From contig CAMCPL010000001.1 in NCBI GenBank assembly GCA_945876745.1, forward strand, positions 1 to 64,000: a stretch of DNA of 64,000 nt. The letters run 5' to 3'. The translations under genes were made by a program, and so were the position numbers. This document shows positions 53,823 to 64,000 of the stretch, one piece after another. The stretch is from an uncultured Clostridia bacterium (GTDB taxonomy: Bacteria; Bacillota; Clostridia; Oscillospirales; Acutalibacteraceae). Numbering within the stretch: position 1 is the first letter of the stretch; every line of letters begins with the position of its first letter. The notes beneath the pieces were generated by a model that worked only from the letters and a program-made list of their open reading frames with translations, made no database searches and had not been told where the DNA came from.

Positions 53823-53852
53823 AAAGGCACCTCGTTCGAGGTGTCTTTTTGA
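53823..53852 (-). terminator. Terminator of the hdr-flx-frd operon
   Basis: GGCACCTCG (53826-53834) pairs with CGAGGTGTC (53837-53845) with T-runs on both strands. It lies 17 bases beyond the stop of the AspT-like gene and ends the 10-kb leftward operon. Confidence 0.8.
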
Positions 53853-53868
53853 TGAAAAACATATAATT

Positions 53869-55092
53869 TTAGCAGAACATAATTATCAGCTTTGAAGCAA
53901 GCACTATGCATATAAGTGCGATAGGATAAGTTGCCGCATAAGCCGACGCAACGTCCTCCGTTCCTGCCACGCTGATTAATGTTCCCAGTGCCGGAGTGCT
54001 CGTCATACCTCCGGTTATCGAACCGAGGTTATTGAGAAGCGGCATTTTCAGCACATACCTTGCGAAAATATAGCCCACAACCATCGGAACGAGCGTCATC
54101 ACTGCGCCGTACAGGAAATAAATCGGCTCAAAATACTGCACGAATTTTGCACCTCCGCTTATACCTGCGCCGATAAGAAACATCATCAGCCCCAGCTCAC
54201 GCAAGGTACGAAGCGTTTCGGTTTTCGGCATAATACACACCTTGCCGATTTTTCCGAAATGACCGAACAAAAGAGCCACCAATATACAGCCGCCTGTTGT
54301 TGTCAGCGAAAAGCCTTTAACCTTTATCGAGCCGACCGCAACGCCCAAAACAGCCGCAAGTGCAAACGCCGTAAATCCAAATTCGTCAATATTGATAACG
54401 CTGTTTTTCTTAACGCTCGATGTCGTTTTCTGTTGAATATGCTCAACGCTGATTTTTTCAAGCTCCGCTTTCATATCGGCTTTAGTAAGCTTAGGAATAA
54501 GCTGAACGAAAAGCACAACGCCCACAACGCCGAACAAATACGCAATAGCATATCCTGCGGAAACGGCGTCCTCAAGATGTCCGCCGAACTCCGACACAGC
54601 TTCCTTTGAAGCGGAAAAGGCGGGAGTAGAGGTAAGTGCGCCTGCGAGAAGTCCGACCATAGTCGCCTTAAATGTATCAAAATCAACCGAACTTATTTTT
54701 GATCCGACAACGATACAAAGCGTACAAATCAGCGCCGCCGACAGAATAATCACAAGTCCCAAAAGAACATACGACTTAAAATTCTGCTTCATATTGCGGA
54801 AAAACTTCGGTCCTGCGATAAATCCGACCGCAGTAACAAAGAAAATAAGTCCGAGATTTTCGACAATTTTCAGCGCTTCCTTAACGAAGGTTGCGTCACC
54901 GACCTTAAGCTGTCCTTCAAGGTTTTCAAACAGAAACGCTCCAAACAGCAAAGCAACGATAAACACGCCTGCCGTACCGAGATTTACGCCCTTAATCGTA
55001 ATTCTGCCAAGCAGATAACCAACAACGGCAACTGCCAAAACACAAAATGTCAGAAAGCCGACGCCTGTAACGGAAAGAATCCCTAAATTCAT
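53869..55092 (-). CDS. AspT/YidE-family dicarboxylate transporter
   Basis: A 407-residue membrane protein made of two related halves, each with about five helices and the AspT-family signature (LTSTPAFSASKEA near 155; MTSTPALGTLISVAG near 368). The central RCK/TrkA-C domains of longer relatives are missing. Known family members swap aspartate for alanine (AspT) or export succinate (SucE). As the last gene of an operon for fumarate reduction, export of succinate or exchange with aspartate, malate or fumarate is the most likely role. The gene follows the flavoprotein gene after six bases. Confidence 0.75.
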   Translation of the reverse strand: MNLGILSVTGVGFLTFCVLAVAVVGYLLGRITIKGVNLGTAGVFIVALLFGAFLFENLEGQLKVGDATFVKEALKIVENLGLIFFVTAVGFIAGPKFFRNMKQNFKSYVLLGLVIILSAALICTLCIVVGSKISSVDFDTFKATMVGLLAGALTSTPAFSASKEAVSEFGGHLEDAVSAGYAIAYLFGVVGVVLFVQLIPKLTKADMKAELEKISVEHIQQKTTSSVKKNSVINIDEFGFTAFALAAVLGVAVGSIKVKGFSLTTTGGCILVALLFGHFGKIGKVCIMPKTETLRTLRELGLMMFLIGAGISGGAKFVQYFEPIYFLYGAVMTLVPMVVGYIFARYVLKMPLLNNLGSITGGMTSTPALGTLISVAGTEDVASAYAATYPIALICIVLASKLIIMFC

Positions 55093-55098
55093 ATTCCC

Positions 55099-56706
55099 TT
55101 ACTCCTTTGCGTTAACCTTGCGTGTATAGTCGGGAAGAAGCTTCGGTGAAACGATATCGGTTTCAATTCCTGCGTTCTTGATTTCGTTTTCAAAATCGTC
55201 AACGTGAGAAAGAGTAAGCGACTTAACCTCTGTTGACTTCGCTTTCTCGGACGCATTTTTGCCTGCGTTTCTGCCGAATACAATGATATCAAGAAGCGAG
55301 TTACCCATAAGTCTGTTTCTGCCGTGAATACCGCCGACAGCCTCGCCTGCAACATAGAGATTTTCAACATTTGTCATACCGTCGGCAGAAATGTCGAGAC
55401 CGCCGTTTTGGTAATGAAGCGTAGGATAAACGAGAATAGGCTCCTTACGAATATCAATGCCGTACTTGCCGAACATTCTCATCATAGCAGGGATTCTCTT
55501 TTCGATAGTACCCTCGCCGTTTTTGAGTTCAATCATCGGTGTGTCAAGCCAAACACCGATACCGTCGTCTGTATGAACGCCGTTTTCGTTAGTCGAACAT
55601 TCACGAATAATCGAAGCGGCGGAAACGTCACGTGTTTCAAGCGGGTGCATAAACACGTCGCCGTTTACGTTAATGAGCTTTGCACCGAGTGAACGCACCT
55701 TTTCGGTTACGAGTGCGCCAAAAATCTGCTCGGGATATGCCGCACCCGTTGGGTGATATTGAAGAGTGTCAGCATATAGAAGCTTTGCACCTGCACGATA
55801 GCCCAAAACAAGACCGTCGGCAGTTGCGCCGTAATGGTTAGAGGTTGGGAAGCCCTGATAATGAAGTCGTCCTGCGCCGCCTGTTGCAATGATAACTGTC
55901 TTTGCACGGGCTACGAGGATTTCCTCGGTTTCCATATTCATCAAAACTGCGCCGGCAGCCTTGCCGTCCTCGTCCTTAATAAGCTCGATTGCCGCTGTAA
56001 AGTCAACAACGGGAATACGTCTGTTTTGAACCTCGTCACGAAGCGTACGCATAATCTCTGCGCCCGAATAGTCCTTTGCGGCGTGCATTCTCTTGCGTGA
56101 TGTACCGCCGCCGTGGGTAGTAATCATAGTACCGTCTGCATCCTTATCAAACTCAACGCCGAGATTATTGAGCCATTGAATAGCCTCAGGCGCGTCGTTA
56201 ACTAACTTATAGAGAAGCTCCGGCTTTGCCGCAAAATGACCGCCGCCGAATGCGTCGATATAGTGCTGTGCAGGGGAGTCGTTTTCCTTATCTGCAGCCT
56301 GAATACCGCCCTCAGCCATCATAGTATTTGCGTCGCCGATACGAAGCTTTGTAACTATCATACAGGAAGCGCCGTTATTATCAGCTTCGATAGCCGCCGA
56401 AGCACCTGCTCCGCCGCCGCCGATGATAAGAACGTCAACATCATAATCAATCTTTGAAAGGTCGATATCTCCGGACTTTATTCGGCTGTGAGCCTGTAAA
56501 AGTCCTGCAAGCTCAATAGGTACCTTCTCGCCCTTATTGGGTCCGATTTCAAGAGTGGCGAACTCGCTTTCCTTATAGTCGGGGTGATAGGTTGCAAGAA
56601 GGGTTTCCTTTTCCTCGGCGGTCATACGACGAGGCTCGAATACTGCGTTTTCCTCTCGCTTTGCCGCAACCTTTTCCATTGATTTAAGCATTTCTTCGTT
56701 ATACAT
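55099..56706 (-). CDS. frdA: Fumarate-reductase-type flavoprotein subunit
   Basis: A 535-residue FrdA/SdhA-class flavoprotein. The FAD fold starts at VLIIGGGGAGASAAIEA (about residue 93). Substrate and catalytic residues are in place: HPTG (318-321), METRDVSAASIIRE (near 357-370), YPTLHYQNGGLDIS (near 425) and HGRNRLMGNSLLDIIVFGR near 468. The His that links FAD covalently in FrdA/SdhA is replaced by Asn in ANTMMAEGG (126-134), so FAD is probably bound non-covalently. An extra N-terminal stretch of about 85 residues precedes the fold. There is no membrane anchor gene. It should reduce fumarate to succinate in the cytosol. Confidence 0.75.
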   Translation of the reverse strand: MYNEEMLKSMEKVAAKREENAVFEPRRMTAEEKETLLATYHPDYKESEFATLEIGPNKGEKVPIELAGLLQAHSRIKSGDIDLSKIDYDVDVLIIGGGGAGASAAIEADNNGASCMIVTKLRIGDANTMMAEGGIQAADKENDSPAQHYIDAFGGGHFAAKPELLYKLVNDAPEAIQWLNNLGVEFDKDADGTMITTHGGGTSRKRMHAAKDYSGAEIMRTLRDEVQNRRIPVVDFTAAIELIKDEDGKAAGAVLMNMETEEILVARAKTVIIATGGAGRLHYQGFPTSNHYGATADGLVLGYRAGAKLLYADTLQYHPTGAAYPEQIFGALVTEKVRSLGAKLINVNGDVFMHPLETRDVSAASIIRECSTNENGVHTDDGIGVWLDTPMIELKNGEGTIEKRIPAMMRMFGKYGIDIRKEPILVYPTLHYQNGGLDISADGMTNVENLYVAGEAVGGIHGRNRLMGNSLLDIIVFGRNAGKNASEKAKSTEVKSLTLSHVDDFENEIKNAGIETDIVSPKLLPDYTRKVNAKE

Positions 56707-56718
56707 TTTGGCACCTCC

Positions 56719-57396
56719 TTACTTCTCGATTTCTCTGTTATTATAGAGCTCTTTCATTTCCTCGATAGGCTTTTGCATAAGATTCTGCAACAGCTCCTCA
56801 AAGGTTCCGTCCTTGATTTCCTGAACTCTGTTTGTCAAGTGCTTGCTTTCGGGTGCAAGATATTTTCCGTTAATTCTACGTGCAAGAAGACCGACCTGCG
56901 GATGCGAAATTCCTGCCGGACAACGAGAGGAGCACACGCCGCACATTACGCAGTCGAAGCTCTCCTCGGCGCATTTTTCAAAGTCGCCCCTTTGAGCATA
57001 AGCAATATACTGCATAACGTTAAGCCCCTGAGTGCACGCATTTGTGCAAGCATTACAGCCGACGCAGGCGTAAATTTCGGGATAAAGCTGCATCATAACT
57101 GCCTGCGATGGAGAAACCTTTTCGATATCATAAGGCTCTTTTATAAGCGGGAAGAACGGAAGCGTTGCGATATACATACCCTGCTCAACCTTTGTTTGAC
57201 ACGCAAGGCACGCCTTCAATTCTCTGTCGCCCTCAATTCTGTAAACAGTAGCGCAAGCACCGCAAAAGCCGTTACGACAGCCGCAGCCTCTTTTAAGCTG
57301 ATAGCCGGCATATTCCATTGCGCTCATAATAGTGAGATTTGACGGCACAGAATACTTCTTGCCGAACAAATAAATATTTACCATATTATTTTCCAT
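56719..57396 (-). CDS. frdB: Fumarate-reductase-type iron-sulfur subunit
   Basis: A 225-residue protein with an N-terminal plant-type [2Fe-2S] domain (GCGCRNGFCGAC near 38, LKACLACQT near 61) and two [4Fe-4S] sites (CVGCNACTNAC near 108, CVMCGVCSSRCPAG near 145). It wires the flavoprotein to an electron donor. The double [4Fe-4S] part resembles HdrC more than the [4Fe-4S]/[3Fe-4S] set of ordinary FrdB. I start at 57396 behind AGGAGG; the longer frame runs back into the flxA gene. It lies 12 bases before the flavoprotein gene. Confidence 0.75.
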   Translation of the reverse strand: MENNMVNIYLFGKKYSVPSNLTIMSAMEYAGYQLKRGCGCRNGFCGACATVYRIEGDRELKACLACQTKVEQGMYIATLPFFPLIKEPYDIEKVSPSQAVMMQLYPEIYACVGCNACTNACTQGLNVMQYIAYAQRGDFEKCAEESFDCVMCGVCSSRCPAGISHPQVGLLARRINGKYLAPESKHLTNRVQEIKDGTFEELLQNLMQKPIEEMKELYNNREIEK

Positions 57397-57412
57397 AGTC
57401 CTATCCTCCTGT

Positions 57413-58240
57413 TTAGTATTCGTCGGGAAGCTCGTCAAGCTCGTCGCAACGGAACACCGGTCCGTCCTTGCAAACATACTTATCGCCGATATTACATCTG
57501 CCGCACTTACCGATACCGCATTTCATACGAAGCTCCATAGTAGTGTAAACCTGAGTTTTATCAAAGCCAAGCTCGATAAGCCCCTGCAATGTAAACTTAA
57601 TCATAATAGGCGGACCGCAGATAATGGCGGTCTTGTTTGTATCAAAGCCAAGCTCCTTGACATAATTCGGAACAAAGCCGACGTGACCGTCCCAGCCCTC
57701 CTGCTCACGGTCGATAGTAAGGTGAACGTCTATGCCGTCCTCCTTGCACCATTCGTCGATAATCTCCTGATAATCAACAAGGTCGTCCATACTGCGTGAG
57801 CCGTAAACAATATCAATTTTGCCGTATTTTTCACGATTATCACGGCAGTAGTTAATTACACTGCGAAGCGGCGCAAGTCCGATACCGCCTGCGATAAAGA
57901 GCAAATCCTTGCCGACAAATTCTGTGTCAACCGGAAACGCATTTCCGTAAGGACCTCTTACTGCAATTTCCTGACCGACGTCCATTTGATGTAGCCAAGT
58001 TGTAAGGCAACCGCACTTTTTTATGCTGAATTCCATATATTCGTTGTTTGTCGGAGAAGAGGTAATCGAAAACATACCCTCGCCTGCACCGGGAATTGAA
58101 AGCATTGCGCATTGTCCGGGCTTGTGCTCAAACAGCTTGCCGCCGTTTGGGGCATTTACTCTAAAGGTCTTAACGTCGGGGGTGTCCTGTCTTATATCGG
58201 TGACAACGCCGACTACGGGAATTAAGGTTTCTGTATTCAT
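57413..58240 (-). CDS. flxA: FlxA-like NAD(P)H:FAD oxidoreductase
   Basis: A 275-residue ferredoxin-NADP-reductase-like protein. The FAD part has GMFSITSSPTNNEYMEFS (about 60-77), the NAD(P) part LLFIAGGIGLAPLRSVI (about 110-126), and the C-terminal cysteine cluster CGIGKCGRCNIGDKYVCKDG binds an Fe-S centre, as in PyrK and AsrB. In FlxABCD it oxidises NAD(P)H and passes electrons on through FlxB and FlxC. ATG 58240 overlaps the flxB stop (TAATG). The upstream extension is a shadow of flxB. Confidence 0.75.
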   Translation of the reverse strand: MNTETLIPVVGVVTDIRQDTPDVKTFRVNAPNGGKLFEHKPGQCAMLSIPGAGEGMFSITSSPTNNEYMEFSIKKCGCLTTWLHQMDVGQEIAVRGPYGNAFPVDTEFVGKDLLFIAGGIGLAPLRSVINYCRDNREKYGKIDIVYGSRSMDDLVDYQEIIDEWCKEDGIDVHLTIDREQEGWDGHVGFVPNYVKELGFDTNKTAIICGPPIMIKFTLQGLIELGFDKTQVYTTMELRMKCGIGKCGRCNIGDKYVCKDGPVFRCDELDELPDEY

Positions 58241-59259
58241 TATGCCTGCACCTCCAACGCTTTTTCTACCTTTACAATATTCATTGAAATCGGGCATTTT
58301 GCAAGACATCTGCCGCAGCCTACGCAACCGAAAATGCCGTCGTTGTTATCTGGGAAATACACAAGCTTGTGCATAAATCTTTGACGGAAGCGTTCAAGCT
58401 GTGAGGTTCTCGGATTGCCGTGAGCCATCTTTGTAAAATCACTATACATACAGCTGTCCCAGCATCTGAATTTCTTTACGCCGTTTCCTGTGTCAAATTC
58501 ACGAATATCGTAGCATTGACAGGTCGGGCATACGAAGGTACATCCGCCGCAGCCGAGACACGCCTCGGAAAGTTGAGCCCATTTCGGATTGTTAAAATGC
58601 TCCAAAAGCTCTTGCTTTTTCATACCCTCGAACGAAACGTTTGCAAGGGGCAATTTGCTCATAGTCGTCTTGATTGCGTTCTTCGTTTGCTCGACTATGC
58701 TTTCGTCACCGTCCTCAAGCACGCCGTCAAGACTGTTCAAAAGGCTCTCGCCCTTTTCGGTTTTCGCCTGAAAATACATTTCATCGCCGAACTGCCAAGC
58801 AACAACGTCGCCCTGCGGCTCGCTCGCGTCTATGCCGAAAGCCGAGCAAAAGCAGGTTTCTTCGGGTCTGTTGCACGCAAGGCTGATAATAACGCCGTGC
58901 TCACGCCTGTTTTTGTAGTATGTATCAATCGGGTCAACAAGGAAAACTCTGTCGAGAATGTCAAAGGCTCTTGCATCGCAAGCTCTGACGCCGAAAACGA
59001 CAAAATCATCAAGCTCGCTTCTCGTATCCTTTATTTCAAGCTTTTTTCCGTTCATCTTAATGTCGTACAAATTCTCGGTCTGAGGAAAGAAGAAGCCCTT
59101 TGCGGAACAGTTTGTATTGTATTTTTCGGTGAGTGTAACGCCGTCGTCATACTGCGCAAACTCGGCAATATCGCCCTTGTCGGTGGGAATATACAATTTC
59201 TGCGATTTGGTAATCTCGTCAAAAAGAGAGTAGATATTTGCCATTGAAATCTTTTTCAT
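58240..59259 (-). CDS. flxB: FlxB-like iron-sulfur protein
   Basis: A 339-residue protein of the anaerobic sulfite reductase A/sulfhydrogenase beta type. A GVRACDARAFDILDRVF segment (near 90) and CNRPEETCFCSAFG (near 130) are family features; the C-terminal part holds two [4Fe-4S] clusters (CLGCGGCTFVCPTCQC near 235, CVGCGRCLAKCP near 316). It links FlxA with FlxC in the NADH dehydrogenase module. Its start overlaps the flxC stop. Confidence 0.75.
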   Translation of the reverse strand: MKKISMANIYSLFDEITKSQKLYIPTDKGDIAEFAQYDDGVTLTEKYNTNCSAKGFFFPQTENLYDIKMNGKKLEIKDTRSELDDFVVFGVRACDARAFDILDRVFLVDPIDTYYKNRREHGVIISLACNRPEETCFCSAFGIDASEPQGDVVAWQFGDEMYFQAKTEKGESLLNSLDGVLEDGDESIVEQTKNAIKTTMSKLPLANVSFEGMKKQELLEHFNNPKWAQLSEACLGCGGCTFVCPTCQCYDIREFDTGNGVKKFRCWDSCMYSDFTKMAHGNPRTSQLERFRQRFMHKLVYFPDNNDGIFGCVGCGRCLAKCPISMNIVKVEKALEVQA

Positions 59260-60242
59260 TACTTATCTCCTCCTCTTTCGTAAACAACGCTCGGCTCGCA
59301 GTCGTCAAAGGTGAAATCAACCATAGGATATCTGCTGTCTGCATCCTCGCCTGCCTGATACTCGCCGTAAAGCTCGTTTGCGTCCTTGATGAACTTTCGA
59401 TTCAGTAAATGAAGCGGAATATGCTGTGGACAAACTCTTGTACATTCGCCGCAGTCGGTACATCTTCCTGCAACGTGGAACGCGCGAATGATATGGAAAT
59501 TGCTTTCCTCAAAGCTCGTCTGCGCCGCCTTTTGCGCCACGCCCGATTCGTCGTTGTCGAACACGCATTTTTCACAGGTGCACGCAGGACAAACGTTTCT
59601 GCACGCATTACAACGAATACATCTTGAAAGCTCGTTTTGCCAAAATTCAAATCTCTCGTCGGGCGTCATAGCCTCAAGCCTTGCCACCATATCAAAGCGG
59701 TTGCAATCCTCAACAACCTCGCCGTTTTCGCCTATAAGCTCATCAAAGATTACGATTTTTTTGCTCTTGCAGGAAAGACATCTTTCAGCCATAACCTCGT
59801 GCTTCATTATCTTTTCTTTTTCGCCGTAGGCGGTTTCAACCGTAATAGAGGTGTCGTCCTCGGTTATATCACAGATTGCACTCAAGCCTCTGTCCTTAAC
59901 CTTTTCAATGTCGGTTTTGCCGAAGCACTCGATACCGATTATATAAATCTTTTCTCTGTTTACTCTATGCTCCTTAATGAGCTGCTGAAGGCTGTAGGAA
60001 TCGCAAGGCTTAACGAAAATAAGGATTTTTCCGCCGTCCTTTCTCGTTTCCTTAATAAGGTACTTTGAAAGGTTGGCACACGAAAAGGTGTTATATACGA
60101 AATCGCTGTCGATTTCCTCGGCACTTTTGAAAACCGCCGGAGTTAAATCATACTTAAACTCACCGATTTTCCAGCCGAGAACACGGTCAACCGTGCCGTC
60201 TTGGAGGAGTGCTTTTGCTCTTGAAATCATTTGTTCTTGCAT
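59259..60242 (-). CDS. flxC: FlxC-like (FrhB-type) iron-sulfur protein
   Basis: A 327-residue protein. The first two thirds (VKPCDSYSLQQLI near 78, GIECFGKTDIEKV near 104, ERCLSCKSK near 154) resemble the F420 hydrogenase beta (FrhB) fold. Two ferredoxin clusters follow (CIRCNACRNVCPACTC near 208 and CTDCGECTRVCP near 260). It passes electrons between FlxA/B and FlxD-HdrA. Its end overlaps flxB by one base and its start overlaps flxD by 16. Confidence 0.7.
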   Translation of the reverse strand: MQEQMISRAKALLQDGTVDRVLGWKIGEFKYDLTPAVFKSAEEIDSDFVYNTFSCANLSKYLIKETRKDGGKILIFVKPCDSYSLQQLIKEHRVNREKIYIIGIECFGKTDIEKVKDRGLSAICDITEDDTSITVETAYGEKEKIMKHEVMAERCLSCKSKKIVIFDELIGENGEVVEDCNRFDMVARLEAMTPDERFEFWQNELSRCIRCNACRNVCPACTCEKCVFDNDESGVAQKAAQTSFEESNFHIIRAFHVAGRCTDCGECTRVCPQHIPLHLLNRKFIKDANELYGEYQAGEDADSRYPMVDFTFDDCEPSVVYERGGDK

Positions 60243-60670
60243 CTCAAATCCTCCAATCTCTTATTTTCGCCGAGCTCATAAATCGTCTGAACAAAGCTAT
60301 TCATAGTCTCGGCAAACTTCTGTCCCTCTGCGGCAGATACCCATTCAACTCTCGTTCTGCCCTTTTCAATGCCGAGATAATCGAGCATTGAGAAAAGCAG
60401 GGTCATTCTGCGGCGAGCGTAGTAGTTGCCTGTCGTATAATGGCAGTCGCCGGGGTGACAGCCGCACATAATAACGCCGTCGGCACCCCTTTGGAACGCT
60501 CTTAAAATGAACATCGGATTTACTCTGCACGAGCAGGGAACACGAATAATTTTTACATCGGCAGGGTAGTTTAGTCGGTTTGTACCTGCCAAATCGGCGC
60601 CTGCATACGAGCACCAATTACAGCAGAATGCAACAATTTTCGGCTTAAATTCATTATTTTCTACTTGCAT
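60227..60670 (-). CDS. flxD: FlxD/MvhD-type iron-sulfur adaptor
   Basis: A 147-residue MvhD-family protein: KIVAFCCNWCSYAGADLAG (about 10-28), RVPCSCRVNPMFILRAFQRG (about 42-61) and CGCHPGDCHYTTGN (about 70-83) hold the conserved Cys of its [2Fe-2S] site. In every studied complex MvhD-like proteins join the donor module to HdrA. Its gene overlaps both neighbours, which fits a fixed ratio of subunits. Confidence 0.85.
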   Translation of the reverse strand: MQVENNEFKPKIVAFCCNWCSYAGADLAGTNRLNYPADVKIIRVPCSCRVNPMFILRAFQRGADGVIMCGCHPGDCHYTTGNYYARRRMTLLFSMLDYLGIEKGRTRVEWVSAAEGQKFAETMNSFVQTIYELGENKRLEDLRCKNK

Positions 60671-62655
60671 ATTGCATCTACCTCCGCCATAATTTGTTTA
60701 TTTGAAAATCCGTTAAGGTCCATTGCACCCGACGGACACGCTACCGTACAAGCGCCGCAGCCCTGGCAAACGGCAGGATTAACGCTTGCAACACGTCTGA
60801 TTTGAGTAGTACGGTCAGGCATTCTAAATTCCTTGTCGATATATGTGATAGCACCGTAGGGACAAACTTTTTCACACGACGAACAGCCGTTACACATAAG
60901 CTCGTCGCTATGCGCAACGCAGGGATTACACGTCAGCTTATCCTTAACGAGAAGTCCGATAACCTTTGCCGCACAAGCACTCGCCTGCGATACTGTTTCG
61001 GGAATATCCTTAGGTCCTTGGCACATACCCGAAAGATATACACCGGCGGTCGGGGATTCAACAGGACGAAGCTTCGGGTGAGCCTCGGTAAAGAAGTCGT
61101 TCGTATCCATAGAAGCGGTGAGCATAGTCGCAAGCGGTCTTGCGCTCTTGTCGGGCTCAACTGCGGCGGCAAGCACAACCATATCAGCGTCAATATGAAG
61201 CTGCTCGTTTGTAATTACGTCACACGCCTGCACCTTGAGCTTTTTGCCCTCCGGCACAACCTTGCCCACCATACCTTTAATATACTTAACGCCGTATTCC
61301 TCAACTGCTCTGCGGTAAAATTCGTCAAAATTCTTACCCGGAGTACGAACGTCAATATAGAAAACATAAACCTCTGTATCAGGGTATTTTTCTCTCGTGA
61401 GCATTGCGTGCTTTGCCGTGTACATACAGCATACCTTTGAGCAATACGTCTTGCCTCGCTCGTCTGTTTTATCACAACGTGAGCCTACGCATTGAACAAA
61501 TACGATTGTATGCGGATGCTCATGGTCGGACGGACGAAGAAGCGTTCCGTTTGTCGGACCTGCGGCGTTCATAAGTCTTTCGTATTCAAGAGAAGTTACA
61601 ACATCGGGCGACTGACTGTACGCAAATTCGTCGAGCTTATCAACCTTGATAGGCTCAAAGCCTGTTGCAACAACGATTGCACCGTATTTTGCGTTTACAT
61701 ATTCGTCCTTTGCGTCATAATTTATTGCCTTTGCCTCACAGACTGTCGAACAAAGTCCGCACTTGCCCGTTCTCATTTTTATACAATAGTTCGGGTCGAT
61801 AGTCGCAACCTTCGGAACTGCCTGTGCAAAGGGGATATAAATCGCACTGCGGTTATCCATACCGAGGTTAAACTCGTTGGGCACCTTTTTCATAGGACAT
61901 TTTTCTGTACACAAGCCGCAGCCTGTACAAATATCCTCGTTGACAAATCTTGCCTTGCGCTTGATTTTTACATCGAAGTTGCCGACAAAGCCCTTGACCT
62001 CGTCAACCTCGCTGTATGAATAAATCTTGATTTTCTCGTTCTGCGCCGCCTCAACCATTTTCGGAGTGAGAATACACGCCGCACAGTCAAGAGTTGGGAA
62101 CGTCTTGTCTATCTGCGCCATTTTTCCGCCGATAGTCGCCGACTTTTCAACAATATCAACCTCGAAGCCTGCCTCGGCAATGTCAAGCGCAGTTTGAATA
62201 CCTGCGATACCTCCGCCGATAACGAGCGCTCTTTTTGTTACAGGGCTTTCGCCTGCGGTAAGCGGAGTGTTAAGCTGTACCTTTGCAATAGCGGCTCTGC
62301 CGAGTATTACTGCCTTTTCAGTTGCAGTCTGCATATCCTTATGTATCCACGAGCATTGCTCACGAATGTTTGCAATCTCAACCATATACGGATTAAGTCC
62401 GACGGACTGCGCCGCTTTTCTGAATGTATTTTCGTGCATTCTCGGAGAGCAGGAACAGATAACAACGCCTGTGAGATTGTAATCCCTGATAGCGTCCTTG
62501 ACCATATTCTGTCCTGCCTCGGAGCACATATACTGATAATCAACGGAGTAAACTACTCCCGGCTCGTTTTTCAAGGCTTCGGCTACCCTGTGAACATCCA
62601 CCGTTCCTGCGATATTACTGCCGCACCAACATACAAATACGCCTATTCTGTGCAT
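60661..62655 (-). CDS. hdrA: HdrA, bifurcating flavoprotein
   Basis: A 664-residue HdrA. It has the N-terminal Cys region (GVFVCWCGSNIAGTVD), a FAD fold (VIGGGIAGIQTALDIAEAG near 148) and GGKMAQIDKTFPTLDCAACI (near 178-197). Four ferredoxin-type clusters are visible: CTGCGLCTEKCP, CGLCSTVCEAKA, CNGCSSCEKVCPYG and CQGCGACTVACPSG. HdrA is the site of flavin-based electron bifurcation, sending one electron to ferredoxin and one to HdrB. Cys, not selenocysteine, fills the conserved site. It is in the middle of the operon. Confidence 0.9.
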   Translation of the reverse strand: MHRIGVFVCWCGSNIAGTVDVHRVAEALKNEPGVVYSVDYQYMCSEAGQNMVKDAIRDYNLTGVVICSCSPRMHENTFRKAAQSVGLNPYMVEIANIREQCSWIHKDMQTATEKAVILGRAAIAKVQLNTPLTAGESPVTKRALVIGGGIAGIQTALDIAEAGFEVDIVEKSATIGGKMAQIDKTFPTLDCAACILTPKMVEAAQNEKIKIYSYSEVDEVKGFVGNFDVKIKRKARFVNEDICTGCGLCTEKCPMKKVPNEFNLGMDNRSAIYIPFAQAVPKVATIDPNYCIKMRTGKCGLCSTVCEAKAINYDAKDEYVNAKYGAIVVATGFEPIKVDKLDEFAYSQSPDVVTSLEYERLMNAAGPTNGTLLRPSDHEHPHTIVFVQCVGSRCDKTDERGKTYCSKVCCMYTAKHAMLTREKYPDTEVYVFYIDVRTPGKNFDEFYRRAVEEYGVKYIKGMVGKVVPEGKKLKVQACDVITNEQLHIDADMVVLAAAVEPDKSARPLATMLTASMDTNDFFTEAHPKLRPVESPTAGVYLSGMCQGPKDIPETVSQASACAAKVIGLLVKDKLTCNPCVAHSDELMCNGCSSCEKVCPYGAITYIDKEFRMPDRTTQIRRVASVNPAVCQGCGACTVACPSGAMDLNGFSNKQIMAEVDAICK

Positions 62656-62671
62656 TTTCGTTCACTCCTCC

Positions 62672-63058
62672 TTACTTCCAATATTTTCTCATAGCCGACA
62701 CGATTGCCTGCTGGGGCAAATCGTCGTCAAGCATTTCGGGAATATCCTGCGCCGTCATATAGCTTTCGCCCTGCTGACGGATTTTTGCAAGCCTTACACA
62801 TTCAATGAGCTTTGCCGGCTCAACGCCTCGCGGACATCTTTCAAGACAAGCCATACACGAAAGACAGGTATAAAGCGACTTGCTTTCAAGCAGCTTTTCG
62901 ATTTTGCCCTTGTTTACCATCGACACAAACTGATGTGGATGATATTCCATATTGTCGAAATTCGGGCAGGTTGCCGAGCATTTTCCGCAACCCATACATT
63001 TAAGCGGATTATTATTATAGGAGCGAAGCACCTGCTCTTTAAGATTTTTATTTTCCAT
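62672..63058 (-). CDS. hdrC: HdrC, iron-sulfur electron-transfer subunit
   Basis: A 128-residue protein with two [4Fe-4S] sites (CMGCGKCSATCPNF near 19, CLSCMACLERCPRG near 64). HdrC carries electrons from HdrA to HdrB. It starts 11 bases after hdrB and ends 16 bases before hdrA. Confidence 0.85.
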   Translation of the reverse strand: MENKNLKEQVLRSYNNNPLKCMGCGKCSATCPNFDNMEYHPHQFVSMVNKGKIEKLLESKSLYTCLSCMACLERCPRGVEPAKLIECVRLAKIRQQGESYMTAQDIPEMLDDDLPQQAIVSAMRKYWK

Positions 63059-63069
63059 TTGCGCTCCTC

Positions 63070-63855
63070 CTATTCCTCAATAAGTCCGAGTGCCTCGGCA
63101 AGCACCTCGGTAAAATATTTAACCGGAATGTCGAATTTTGTGCCATTCTTTTTAAGGTTGTAAAGGCAAAGCGGACAAGCCGTAATAATCATTTCAACGC
63201 CGTTTTTAGCCGCATTTTCCAAAACAGCGTTTGCTCTGTCAATTGCAATTTGCTTATTGCCGAGTGTTGTATAGCCGCCACAGCACTCGTTGCGAAGCGC
63301 ATATTTTACAGGCGTTGCACCGAGTGAAGAAATCAAATCCTCCATAATTGTCGGATTTTCGGCGTTATCCATTTGCATAACACTGCTCGGACGGAGCAAA
63401 AGGCAGCCGTAGTATGCGCCGATTTTTTTGCCTTTAAGCGGATTAGTCACTCTCTTTTTCACTTCGTCAAAGCCGATTTCGTCACGAAGCACCTCAAGAT
63501 AATGCAAAACTCTCGTTTCGCCCGTGTACGCTTCGTCAAGTCCCATATAGCGTGCAACCTTTTCGGCAATTTCGCTGTCGGTCATATCGTTGTTGACCTG
63601 CTTTATAACATTATGGCACGCACTGCACATAGTAACAAGCGGTCTGTTGTGCATTTTTGCGTCATTAAGCGCACGAACGCTTGCGAGCTTTGTTGCAATC
63701 TCGTCCCTTGCCATCGGATAAACGCCGCCGCAGCATTGCCACTCGTCAATTTCCTCAAGCTCAATGCCGAGTGCCCTTGCGCTAATGCGTGCATATTCAT
63801 CCAAATCCTTTGCCTTATTCTTCAAAGTACAACCCGGATAGTAGCTGTAAGTCAT
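63070..63855 (-). CDS. hdrB: HdrB, CCG-domain disulfide/acceptor subunit
   Basis: A 261-residue protein with two CCG domains: YPGCTL, WQCCGG and CSACH in the first, GCLLLRP, NECCGG and CPLC in the second. All cysteines for the two noncubane [4Fe-4S] clusters of HdrB are present. In methanogens it splits the CoM-S-S-CoB disulfide; bacteria have no such compound, so the acceptor here is open. ATG 63855 has AGGAGAATAGG upstream; the longer frame reaches into the gene before it. Confidence 0.85.
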   Translation of the reverse strand: MTYSYYPGCTLKNKAKDLDEYARISARALGIELEEIDEWQCCGGVYPMARDEIATKLASVRALNDAKMHNRPLVTMCSACHNVIKQVNNDMTDSEIAEKVARYMGLDEAYTGETRVLHYLEVLRDEIGFDEVKKRVTNPLKGKKIGAYYGCLLLRPSSVMQMDNAENPTIMEDLISSLGATPVKYALRNECCGGYTTLGNKQIAIDRANAVLENAAKNGVEMIITACPLCLYNLKKNGTKFDIPVKYFTEVLAEALGLIEE

Positions 63856-63895
63856 ACCTATTCTCCTTTTTATCGAGTGTTCGTTTTGAAATAAA

Positions 63896-64000
63896 TCACA
63901 CCATCTGCTCCGGATGGAATACCTCGTCAAATCTCTCCTCAGTTAAGAATCCGAGCTCAACACAAGCCTGCTTTAGCGAGATGTTTTCCGCAAATGCCTT
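63896..64000 (-). CDS. Fumarase/aspartase-family lyase, C-terminal end
   Basis: The last 34 codons of a gene that begins outside the window. Its end, VELGFLTEERFDEVFHPEQM, is the C-terminus of class II fumarase or aspartate ammonia-lyase; PEQMV is closer to fumarase (E. coli FumC ends similarly before a short tail). Either enzyme makes fumarate, the substrate of the reductase in this operon. The stop is 40 bases before hdrB, so it is very likely the first known gene of the operon. Confidence 0.65.
   Translation of the reverse strand, partial: KAFAENISLKQACVELGFLTEERFDEVFHPEQMV

Follow-up and report, generated by a model that had tools for sequence, protein, structure and literature searches.

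Fumarate reductase genes joined to HdrABC-FlxABCD in a Clostridia operon, and the case for fumarate as the high-potential electron acceptor

The FlxABCD-HdrABC complex of Desulfovibrio vulgaris was reportedly described by Ramos in 2015 as an NADH dehydrogenase/heterodisulfide reductase. Here we analyze an operon that encodes all seven subunit kinds of this complex together with a fumarate reductase, FrdAB, in an uncultured Clostridia bacterium of the Acutalibacteraceae; the operon is set against the Desulfovibrio complex by family only. The stretch of DNA studied, hereafter the window, comprises the first 64,000 nucleotides of contig 1 (CAMCPL010000001.1, assembly GCA_945876745.1) of a genome of 1.93 Mb that is 98.6% complete. 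Comparison with other genomes gives good support to fumarate as the predicted high-potential acceptor of this Flx-Hdr complex, and its acceptor is probably fumarate rather than DsrC.

A similar set of genes has been described as the 'succinate operon' of Pseudoclostridium thermosuccinogenes, which holds fumarate hydratase, Flx-Hdr, fumarate reductase and putative succinate transporter genes under consecutive locus tags, seven for Flx-Hdr and two for fumarate reductase (PMC7282089). In the passages that deal with it, this operon is about fourfold upregulated at low CO2, not significantly for all subunits, succinate is reached through a GTP-dependent phosphoenolpyruvate carboxykinase (GTP-PEPCK), and coupling to ferredoxin is assumed and not measured (PMC7282089). 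Neither the operon nor the bifurcation hypothesis is therefore new, since both were published for that organism, and the same is true of fumarate as Flx-Hdr acceptor, a role that an earlier note on the present DNA had also inferred and to which we add comparative support (PMC7282089). Judged from the locus list only, the window carries the same consecutive gene set (PMC7282089). Its host belongs to another lineage, near Eubacterium coprostanoligenes. The ferredoxin-coupling assumption for P. thermosuccinogenes reportedly goes back to a preprint of Koendjbiharie and van Kranenburg from 2019 (10.20944/preprints201912.0288.v1). Succinate is probably among the products of E. coprostanoligenes; the passages of one review are silent on succinate.

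Other described enzymes share parts of this arrangement. In methanogens, TfrB of thiol:fumarate reductase consists of fused FrdB-like and HdrB-like halves. The earlier note had pointed to this enzyme, and the likeness holds in part: among NCBIfam profiles the window's FrdA matches TfrA best (351 bits, under the cut-off of 718), and HdrB-type clusters lie beside the fumarate site in both, whereas the window's FrdB, of 225 amino acids (aa), has no cysteine-rich CCG domain and no fused HdrB, and its FrdA has an extra N-terminus of 85 aa outside the TfrA match. A soluble NADH-dependent fumarate reductase of Hydrogenobacter thermophilus, reportedly the subject of a 2008 paper by Miura, is alike in soluble NADH-linked fumarate reduction, as far as can be told from a title that does not speak of bifurcation. 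E-type succinate:quinone oxidoreductases have an SdhB in which a second [4Fe-4S] cluster replaces the [3Fe-4S] cluster, paired with an HdrB-like SdhE, according to parts of PMC2680327. Compared with E-type SdhABE and the 8-methylmenaquinol:fumarate reductase, the window's FrdB shares the two [4Fe-4S] motifs (36 of 36 aligned sequences), and SdhE is the top NCBIfam match of its HdrB (141 bits, cut-off 500; the CoB-CoM HdrB profile gives 136 bits, cut-off 345), but here the HdrB-like subunit shares its operon with HdrA, HdrC and Flx. Finally, the passages on tubeworm symbionts describe flxABCD-hdrABC with tfrAB and korABCD and propose that Hdr-Flx feeds TfrAB directly (PMC6315080, PMC11636981); theirs is a reductive tricarboxylic acid cycle setting with korABCD interspersed, and the likeness is one of description.

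The operon and its conservation

Open reading frame calls and family profiles place eleven collinear genes on the minus strand, in the order fumC-hdrB-hdrC-hdrA-flxDCBA-frdB-frdA-aspT-like, with overlaps of 1-16 bases or gaps of 6-40 bases between adjoining genes. The starts of frdB, flxA and hdrB are internal ATGs of our own choice. In the direction of reading the features are:

63896..64000, minus strand: fumC, its 3' end within the window; first operon gene, 458-aa class II fumarate hydratase
63070..63855, minus strand: hdrB, 261 aa; two cysteine-rich (CCG) motifs, aligned to HdrB 5odc_B and 8rvu_b
62672..63058, minus strand: hdrC, 128 aa, short form; two 4Fe-4S motifs
60661..62655, minus strand: hdrA, 664 aa; bifurcating-type FAD/4Fe-4S subunit
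60227..60670, minus strand: flxD, 147 aa, MvhD-like (PF02662, 186.7 bits)
59259..60242, minus strand: flxC, 327 aa, 4Fe-4S protein by family profiles; homologues in other hdr-flx clusters
58240..59259, minus strand: flxB, 339 aa, ShyB/HydB/AsrA-like by family profiles
57413..58240, minus strand: flxA, 275 aa from an internal ATG; FAD/NAD(P)-binding, HydG/AsrB-like
56719..57396, minus strand: frdB, 225 aa; [2Fe-2S] domain and two CxxCxxCxxxC motifs
55099..56706, minus strand: frdA, 535 aa; fumarate-reductase flavoprotein with a conserved N-terminal extension of about 85 aa
53869..55092, minus strand: aspT-like carrier, 407 aa; two AspT/YidE/YbjL domains
53828..53843, minus strand: intrinsic-terminator-like hairpin with a T-rich tail, just after the aspT-like gene

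The fumC gene extends beyond the window to about contig position 65272, and its product scores 713.8 bits against TIGR00979 (class II fumarate hydratase; cut-off 664.75), which makes specific what the earlier note had called a fumarate-forming lyase. The leftward operon of eleven nearly touching genes ending at a terminator-like hairpin, as that note had drawn it, is borne out, and its gene identities and energetic logic hold; terminator-like matches are common in the region (17 found, 11.5 expected). The aspT-like carrier is a possible succinate exporter. The absence of a DsrC-like carrier, first seen in the operon, extends to the whole genome assembly, where DsrC has no match. As for a cytochrome b, the claim that none is present stands genome-wide for Sdh_cyt (PF01127), which has no match in the assembly and is the sole cytochrome b or anchor family searched; in this the system differs from classical FrdABCD. 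Also encoded are RnfC (502 bits), the one Rnf subunit searched, and GTP-PEPCK (552 bits); ATP-PEPCK was rejected as the C4-acid entry, as it has no genome match. FrdA was likewise considered as an L-aspartate oxidase, and this was rejected because that enzyme has its own gene in the genome, nadB (534.6 bits; cut-off 472), whose product is the only further FrdA-like protein found there.

The sequences of the subunits were examined in alignments of 39 FrdA (of 120 collected) and 36 FrdB rows. Aligned to solved SdhA, residues H318, E335, R338, H431 and R465 are invariant in all 39 FrdA, and we take them to be the catalytic His/Glu/Arg set of the fumarate site. N127, also present in 39 of 39, occupies the site of the histidine that binds FAD covalently in E. 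coli SdhA, and therefore FAD is probably held non-covalently in FrdA. The FrdA product gives no match to PF02910 (C-terminal domain). Its residues 1-85, which fall outside the TfrA profile match, contain an HPDY-like motif, with Y2, R17, R27, L37, H41-P42-D43 and G55 invariant in 39 of 39. The motif cysteines of FrdB, in the [2Fe-2S] domain and in both CxxCxxCxxxC motifs, are invariant in all 36 rows; among the best 60 of 102 matches of the FrdB profile in PDB, most are of a general ferredoxin type, with weak ones to quinol:fumarate reductase subunit B. The alignment of HdrA to its counterpart in the bifurcating complex of methanogens (5odc_A) scores 676 bits and covers residues 3-661, nearly the whole length.

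A tblastn scan of the genome collection with FrdA gave at least 580 loci at E 1e-3 or better, a number that may include remote flavoproteins, and the best 80, 77-91% identical and thus a near sample, were kept. Whichever of the genes a locus holds, they keep one order in all 80, and chance clustering of the operon genes is ruled out by that unbroken order. Complete hdrBCA-flxDCBA-frdBA is found in 60 loci, and in the other 20 the absent genes would fall beyond a contig end. All nine genes upstream of frdA, fumC included, are present in 58; fumC itself keeps its place in those 58 and, although sequence was available, is absent from 2; in 20 loci it would lie beyond the contig end. Of the 67 loci that extend far enough downstream, 47 have the aspT-like gene immediately after frdA. 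Linkage of frdBA to hdr-flx is thus widespread and clearly not a peculiarity of one genome, the outcome that the earlier note had named as fatal to its idea. Among these loci the closest named relative of the FrdA is that of E. coprostanoligenes ATCC 51222 (90% identity), and one uncultured Eubacterium reaches 91%. Within the host's own genus the distribution is patchy, with a long FrdA in a single same-genus genome (G005) among 59 close genomes, 36 of them of the genus.

In the host's order (365 genomes) FrdA occurs in 63 genomes, HdrB of the subfamily associated with frd in 61, and both in 59. In 55 of these 59 the two genes share a strand, with hdrB upstream of frdA at a distance of 6298-6565 bases; in the other four (G516, G582, G741 and G717) the two genes are on different contigs, the regions examined in the first three showing an operon broken by contig ends, and frdA of G717 beginning at base 8 of its contig. 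Fisher p-values for this co-occurrence are far too small, because the genomes share ancestry. In G531:C2 and G562:C58 frdA matches as two adjoining pieces, from a frameshift or an assembly error.

An HdrB subfamily and the contexts of frdBA across the phylum

Samples of the phylum comprised 398 genomes for the FrdA search and 396 for the HdrB search. HdrB matches fell into two score groups, one of at least 201.7 bits, in 27 genomes including the window's own, and one of at most 189.2 bits; the limit of 200 bits was set after this gap had been seen. FrdA below 1e-90 occurs in 39 of the 398 genomes, and these include every one of the 27 in the upper HdrB group, six of which have the two loci apart. 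Linked genes co-occur as a matter of course; what is informative is these six genomes, which represent only two families, and the pattern is supportive and not proof. In a tree of 50 HdrB rows, including 11 of the 80 near loci and the window, a branch with 100/100 support separates the frd-associated HdrB from those of 14 further hdr-flx clusters in the phylum. The window belongs to the frd-associated clade and also differs from those clusters in its short HdrC, of about 130 aa against about 190. Its genome has a single HdrB match at E 1e-30 or better. As a separate observation, the second cysteine of the TFPTxDCxxC motif in HdrA is replaced by an in-frame TGA codon, as expected for selenocysteine, in nine loci (L163, L168, L169, L171, L173, L174, L176, L177 and L178), which belong to hdr-flx clusters outside the frd-type HdrB clade; Cys occupies this site in 94 other matches to the motif, those of the 6 unlinked frd-type clusters among them.

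The contexts of frdBA were read for 39 loci from 38 other genomes of the phylum, one or two representatives of each kind being scanned and the others assigned by BLAST cluster; the listed FrdA matches all begin by residue 16, so that most of the N-terminal extension is included. The order frdBA-hdrBCA-flxDCBA is found in four loci and hdrCBA-flxDCBA-frdBA in one. Eleven loci (L114, L116, L117, L128, L131, L140, L141, L145, L147, L149 and L151) have a larger Hdr cluster, in which hdrB, hdrA and genes like flxD and flxC stand together with frdBA and with a gene for an additional large HdrA-like protein; two of these loci are cut by a contig end before hdrB. The large HdrA-like protein of L114, 1098 aa long, carries several 4Fe-4S motifs besides its two FAD-type domains. 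In four loci, and in another one cut by a contig end, hdrCB-frdBA stands with no hdrA or flx adjoining; three of the four have TRAP-transporter genes nearby, as judged by sequence cluster with one locus scanned.

No hdr-flx genes adjoin frdBA in the other 18 loci. For six of them hdrBCA-flx of the same type is found elsewhere in the genome (G069, G243, G406, G268, G293 and G426), and in five of these six genomes class I fumarase and malic enzyme genes precede frdBA. For the remaining 12 loci, from 11 genomes, the search found no frd-type HdrB. Several of these have beside frdBA a gene of ferredoxin-cytochrome b561-like (L121-L123), NapC/NirT (L119, L133) or FMN-binding 4Fe-4S type (L133), small 4Fe-4S genes are present in L133 and L139, and pyruvate carboxylase is the neighbor in three. 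An MmgE/PrpD-family gene lies near frdBA in L121, so that the substrate there may not be fumarate. In an FrdA tree of 51 rows, the forms linked to Hdr-Flx sit in three separate places.

Electron path and alternatives

We think it likely that in this fermentative succinate operon NADH drives the coupled reduction of fumarate and ferredoxin. FlxABCD would draw electron pairs from NADH and pass them through FlxD to the FAD of HdrA, where they would be split. One electron of each pair would run downhill through HdrC/HdrB and the iron-sulfur clusters of FrdB to FrdA and fumarate, the latter supplied by the operon's own fumarase, and the other uphill to ferredoxin, which Rnf would re-oxidize, charging the membrane; the AspT-like carrier may export the succinate. 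Bifurcation itself, direct transfer from HdrBC to FrdB, the direction of the reaction and export are what we infer. The net reaction, with protons omitted, would be

2 NADH + Fd(ox) + fumarate -> 2 NAD+ + Fd(red) + succinate

Ferredoxin has a potential of about -500 to -420 mV. With fumarate at an E0' of +33 mV and NAD at -320 mV, as they stand in a passage of PMC5861303, the reaction would be exergonic by about 33 to 49 kJ/mol, and the coupling therefore feasible. The direct step from HdrBC to FrdB would be in keeping with precedent and with the co-occurrence described above. The pairing of E-type SdhE and the fusion in TfrB are precedents for electron exchange between HdrB-type and FrdB-type proteins.

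Several observations weigh against this account or narrow its reach. In the phylum, 12 of the 39 genomes with FrdA have no frd-type HdrB, some with frdBA beside cytochromes, and in one of the 12 (G312) hdrA- and flx-like genes run to a contig end. In the order the same is true of 4 of 63: G629 (77% complete) and G680 (73% complete) contain FrdA fragments, and G606 and G713, both 99% complete and of the same family, carry frdBA alone (G606:C2, L182; G713:C28, L183). Two further genomes (80% and 84% complete) have frd-type HdrB and no FrdA. Hdr-Flx is thus not required by FrdAB everywhere. A co-divergence (mirror-tree) test on the operon proteins of 53 loci, with the shared signal removed, gave nil between FrdB and HdrB (-0.03) or HdrC (-0.05), and 0.41 for FrdB-FrdA, 0.28 for FrdB-FlxB, 0.20 for FrdB-HdrA and 0.24 for HdrB-FrdA. 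No biochemical proof was found in the literature searched, subscription journals being mostly outside its coverage.

Some of these points would suit a FrdAB that takes electrons from another donor, such as ferredoxin or flavodoxin, and shares an operon with Hdr-Flx only for co-regulation: the lone frdBA of G606 and G713, the loci with a pyruvate carboxylase or with cytochrome b561-like or NapC-like genes next to frdBA, and the nil signal between FrdB and HdrBC. Against such independence stand the near-perfect co-occurrence with one HdrB subfamily, the six unlinked genomes included, and a linkage retained across several gene orders, and we consider it distinctly unlikely. Alternatively, Hdr-Flx might bifurcate from NADH to ferredoxin and a small disulfide, with fumarate reduction coupled to it only through the thiol pool, on the model of the methanogen thiol:fumarate reductase. 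The HdrB of the window keeps both cysteine-rich motifs of the disulfide type and aligns over nearly its full length with disulfide-reducing HdrB, which makes a thiol step possible, and work of Ferreira from 2023 is said to show an interaction of Desulfovibrio FlxABCD-HdrABC with the thiol protein DsrC. For tubeworm symbionts, a DsrC-like carrier is one option raised in the relevant passages (PMC11636981). The FrdB, however, lacks the HdrB-like half that carries the thiol site of TfrB, and the genome has no DsrC match and just the one HdrB match. The SdhE of quinol:fumarate reductase also has a ten-cysteine motif (PMC2680327, in part), so the motif alone would be no proof of a thiol step. Coupling through thiols alone is in our judgment unlikely.

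Very improbable is a reaction run in reverse, in which reduced ferredoxin would drive succinate oxidation by confurcation and NADH would be formed. A setting that could suit succinate oxidation is seen in five of the six unlinked genomes, where frdBA comes after the genes for class I fumarase and malic enzyme. Loss of the covalent FAD bond abolishes succinate oxidation and spares fumarate reduction, and N127 replaces the FAD-bonding histidine. The operon's fumarase, its possible C4-carrier and the GTP-PEPCK of the genome also argue against this direction, as does the same gene set in a succinate-producing relative (PMC7282089, from the passages on the operon).

A wider extension of the proposed coupling to fumarate has, to our minds, about an even chance of being right. 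FrdAB would be a plug-in core with exchangeable input modules, namely the NADH-bifurcating HdrBCA-FlxDCBA, HdrCB alone, the complex with two HdrA-like proteins, and cytochrome b561-like or NapC-like proteins, and in gut Clostridia it would form a nine-subunit cytoplasmic complex with Hdr-Flx, in which HdrB/C passes electrons directly to FrdB. This would amount to a third Flx-Hdr branch, with a carbon acceptor in place of the disulfide, and to fumarate respiration by way of Rnf with neither cytochromes nor quinones.

Consequences for succinate-forming Clostridia

In the accessible parts of the literature searched we found no mention of the close pairing of one HdrB subfamily with FrdA, of such pairs in unlinked form, or of input modules that differ. 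With an HdrB subfamily tied to FrdA even where the genes are unlinked, and with input modules that vary between lineages, direct transfer becomes testable. If the proposed coupling is true, Flx-Hdr would gain an acceptor that is not a thiol, and no membrane fumarate reductase would be needed. Many gut Clostridia would then save energy during succinate formation through soluble electron bifurcation, every fumarate reduced would also give reduced ferredoxin for Rnf, and models of gut and rumen fermentation would need revised ATP yields.

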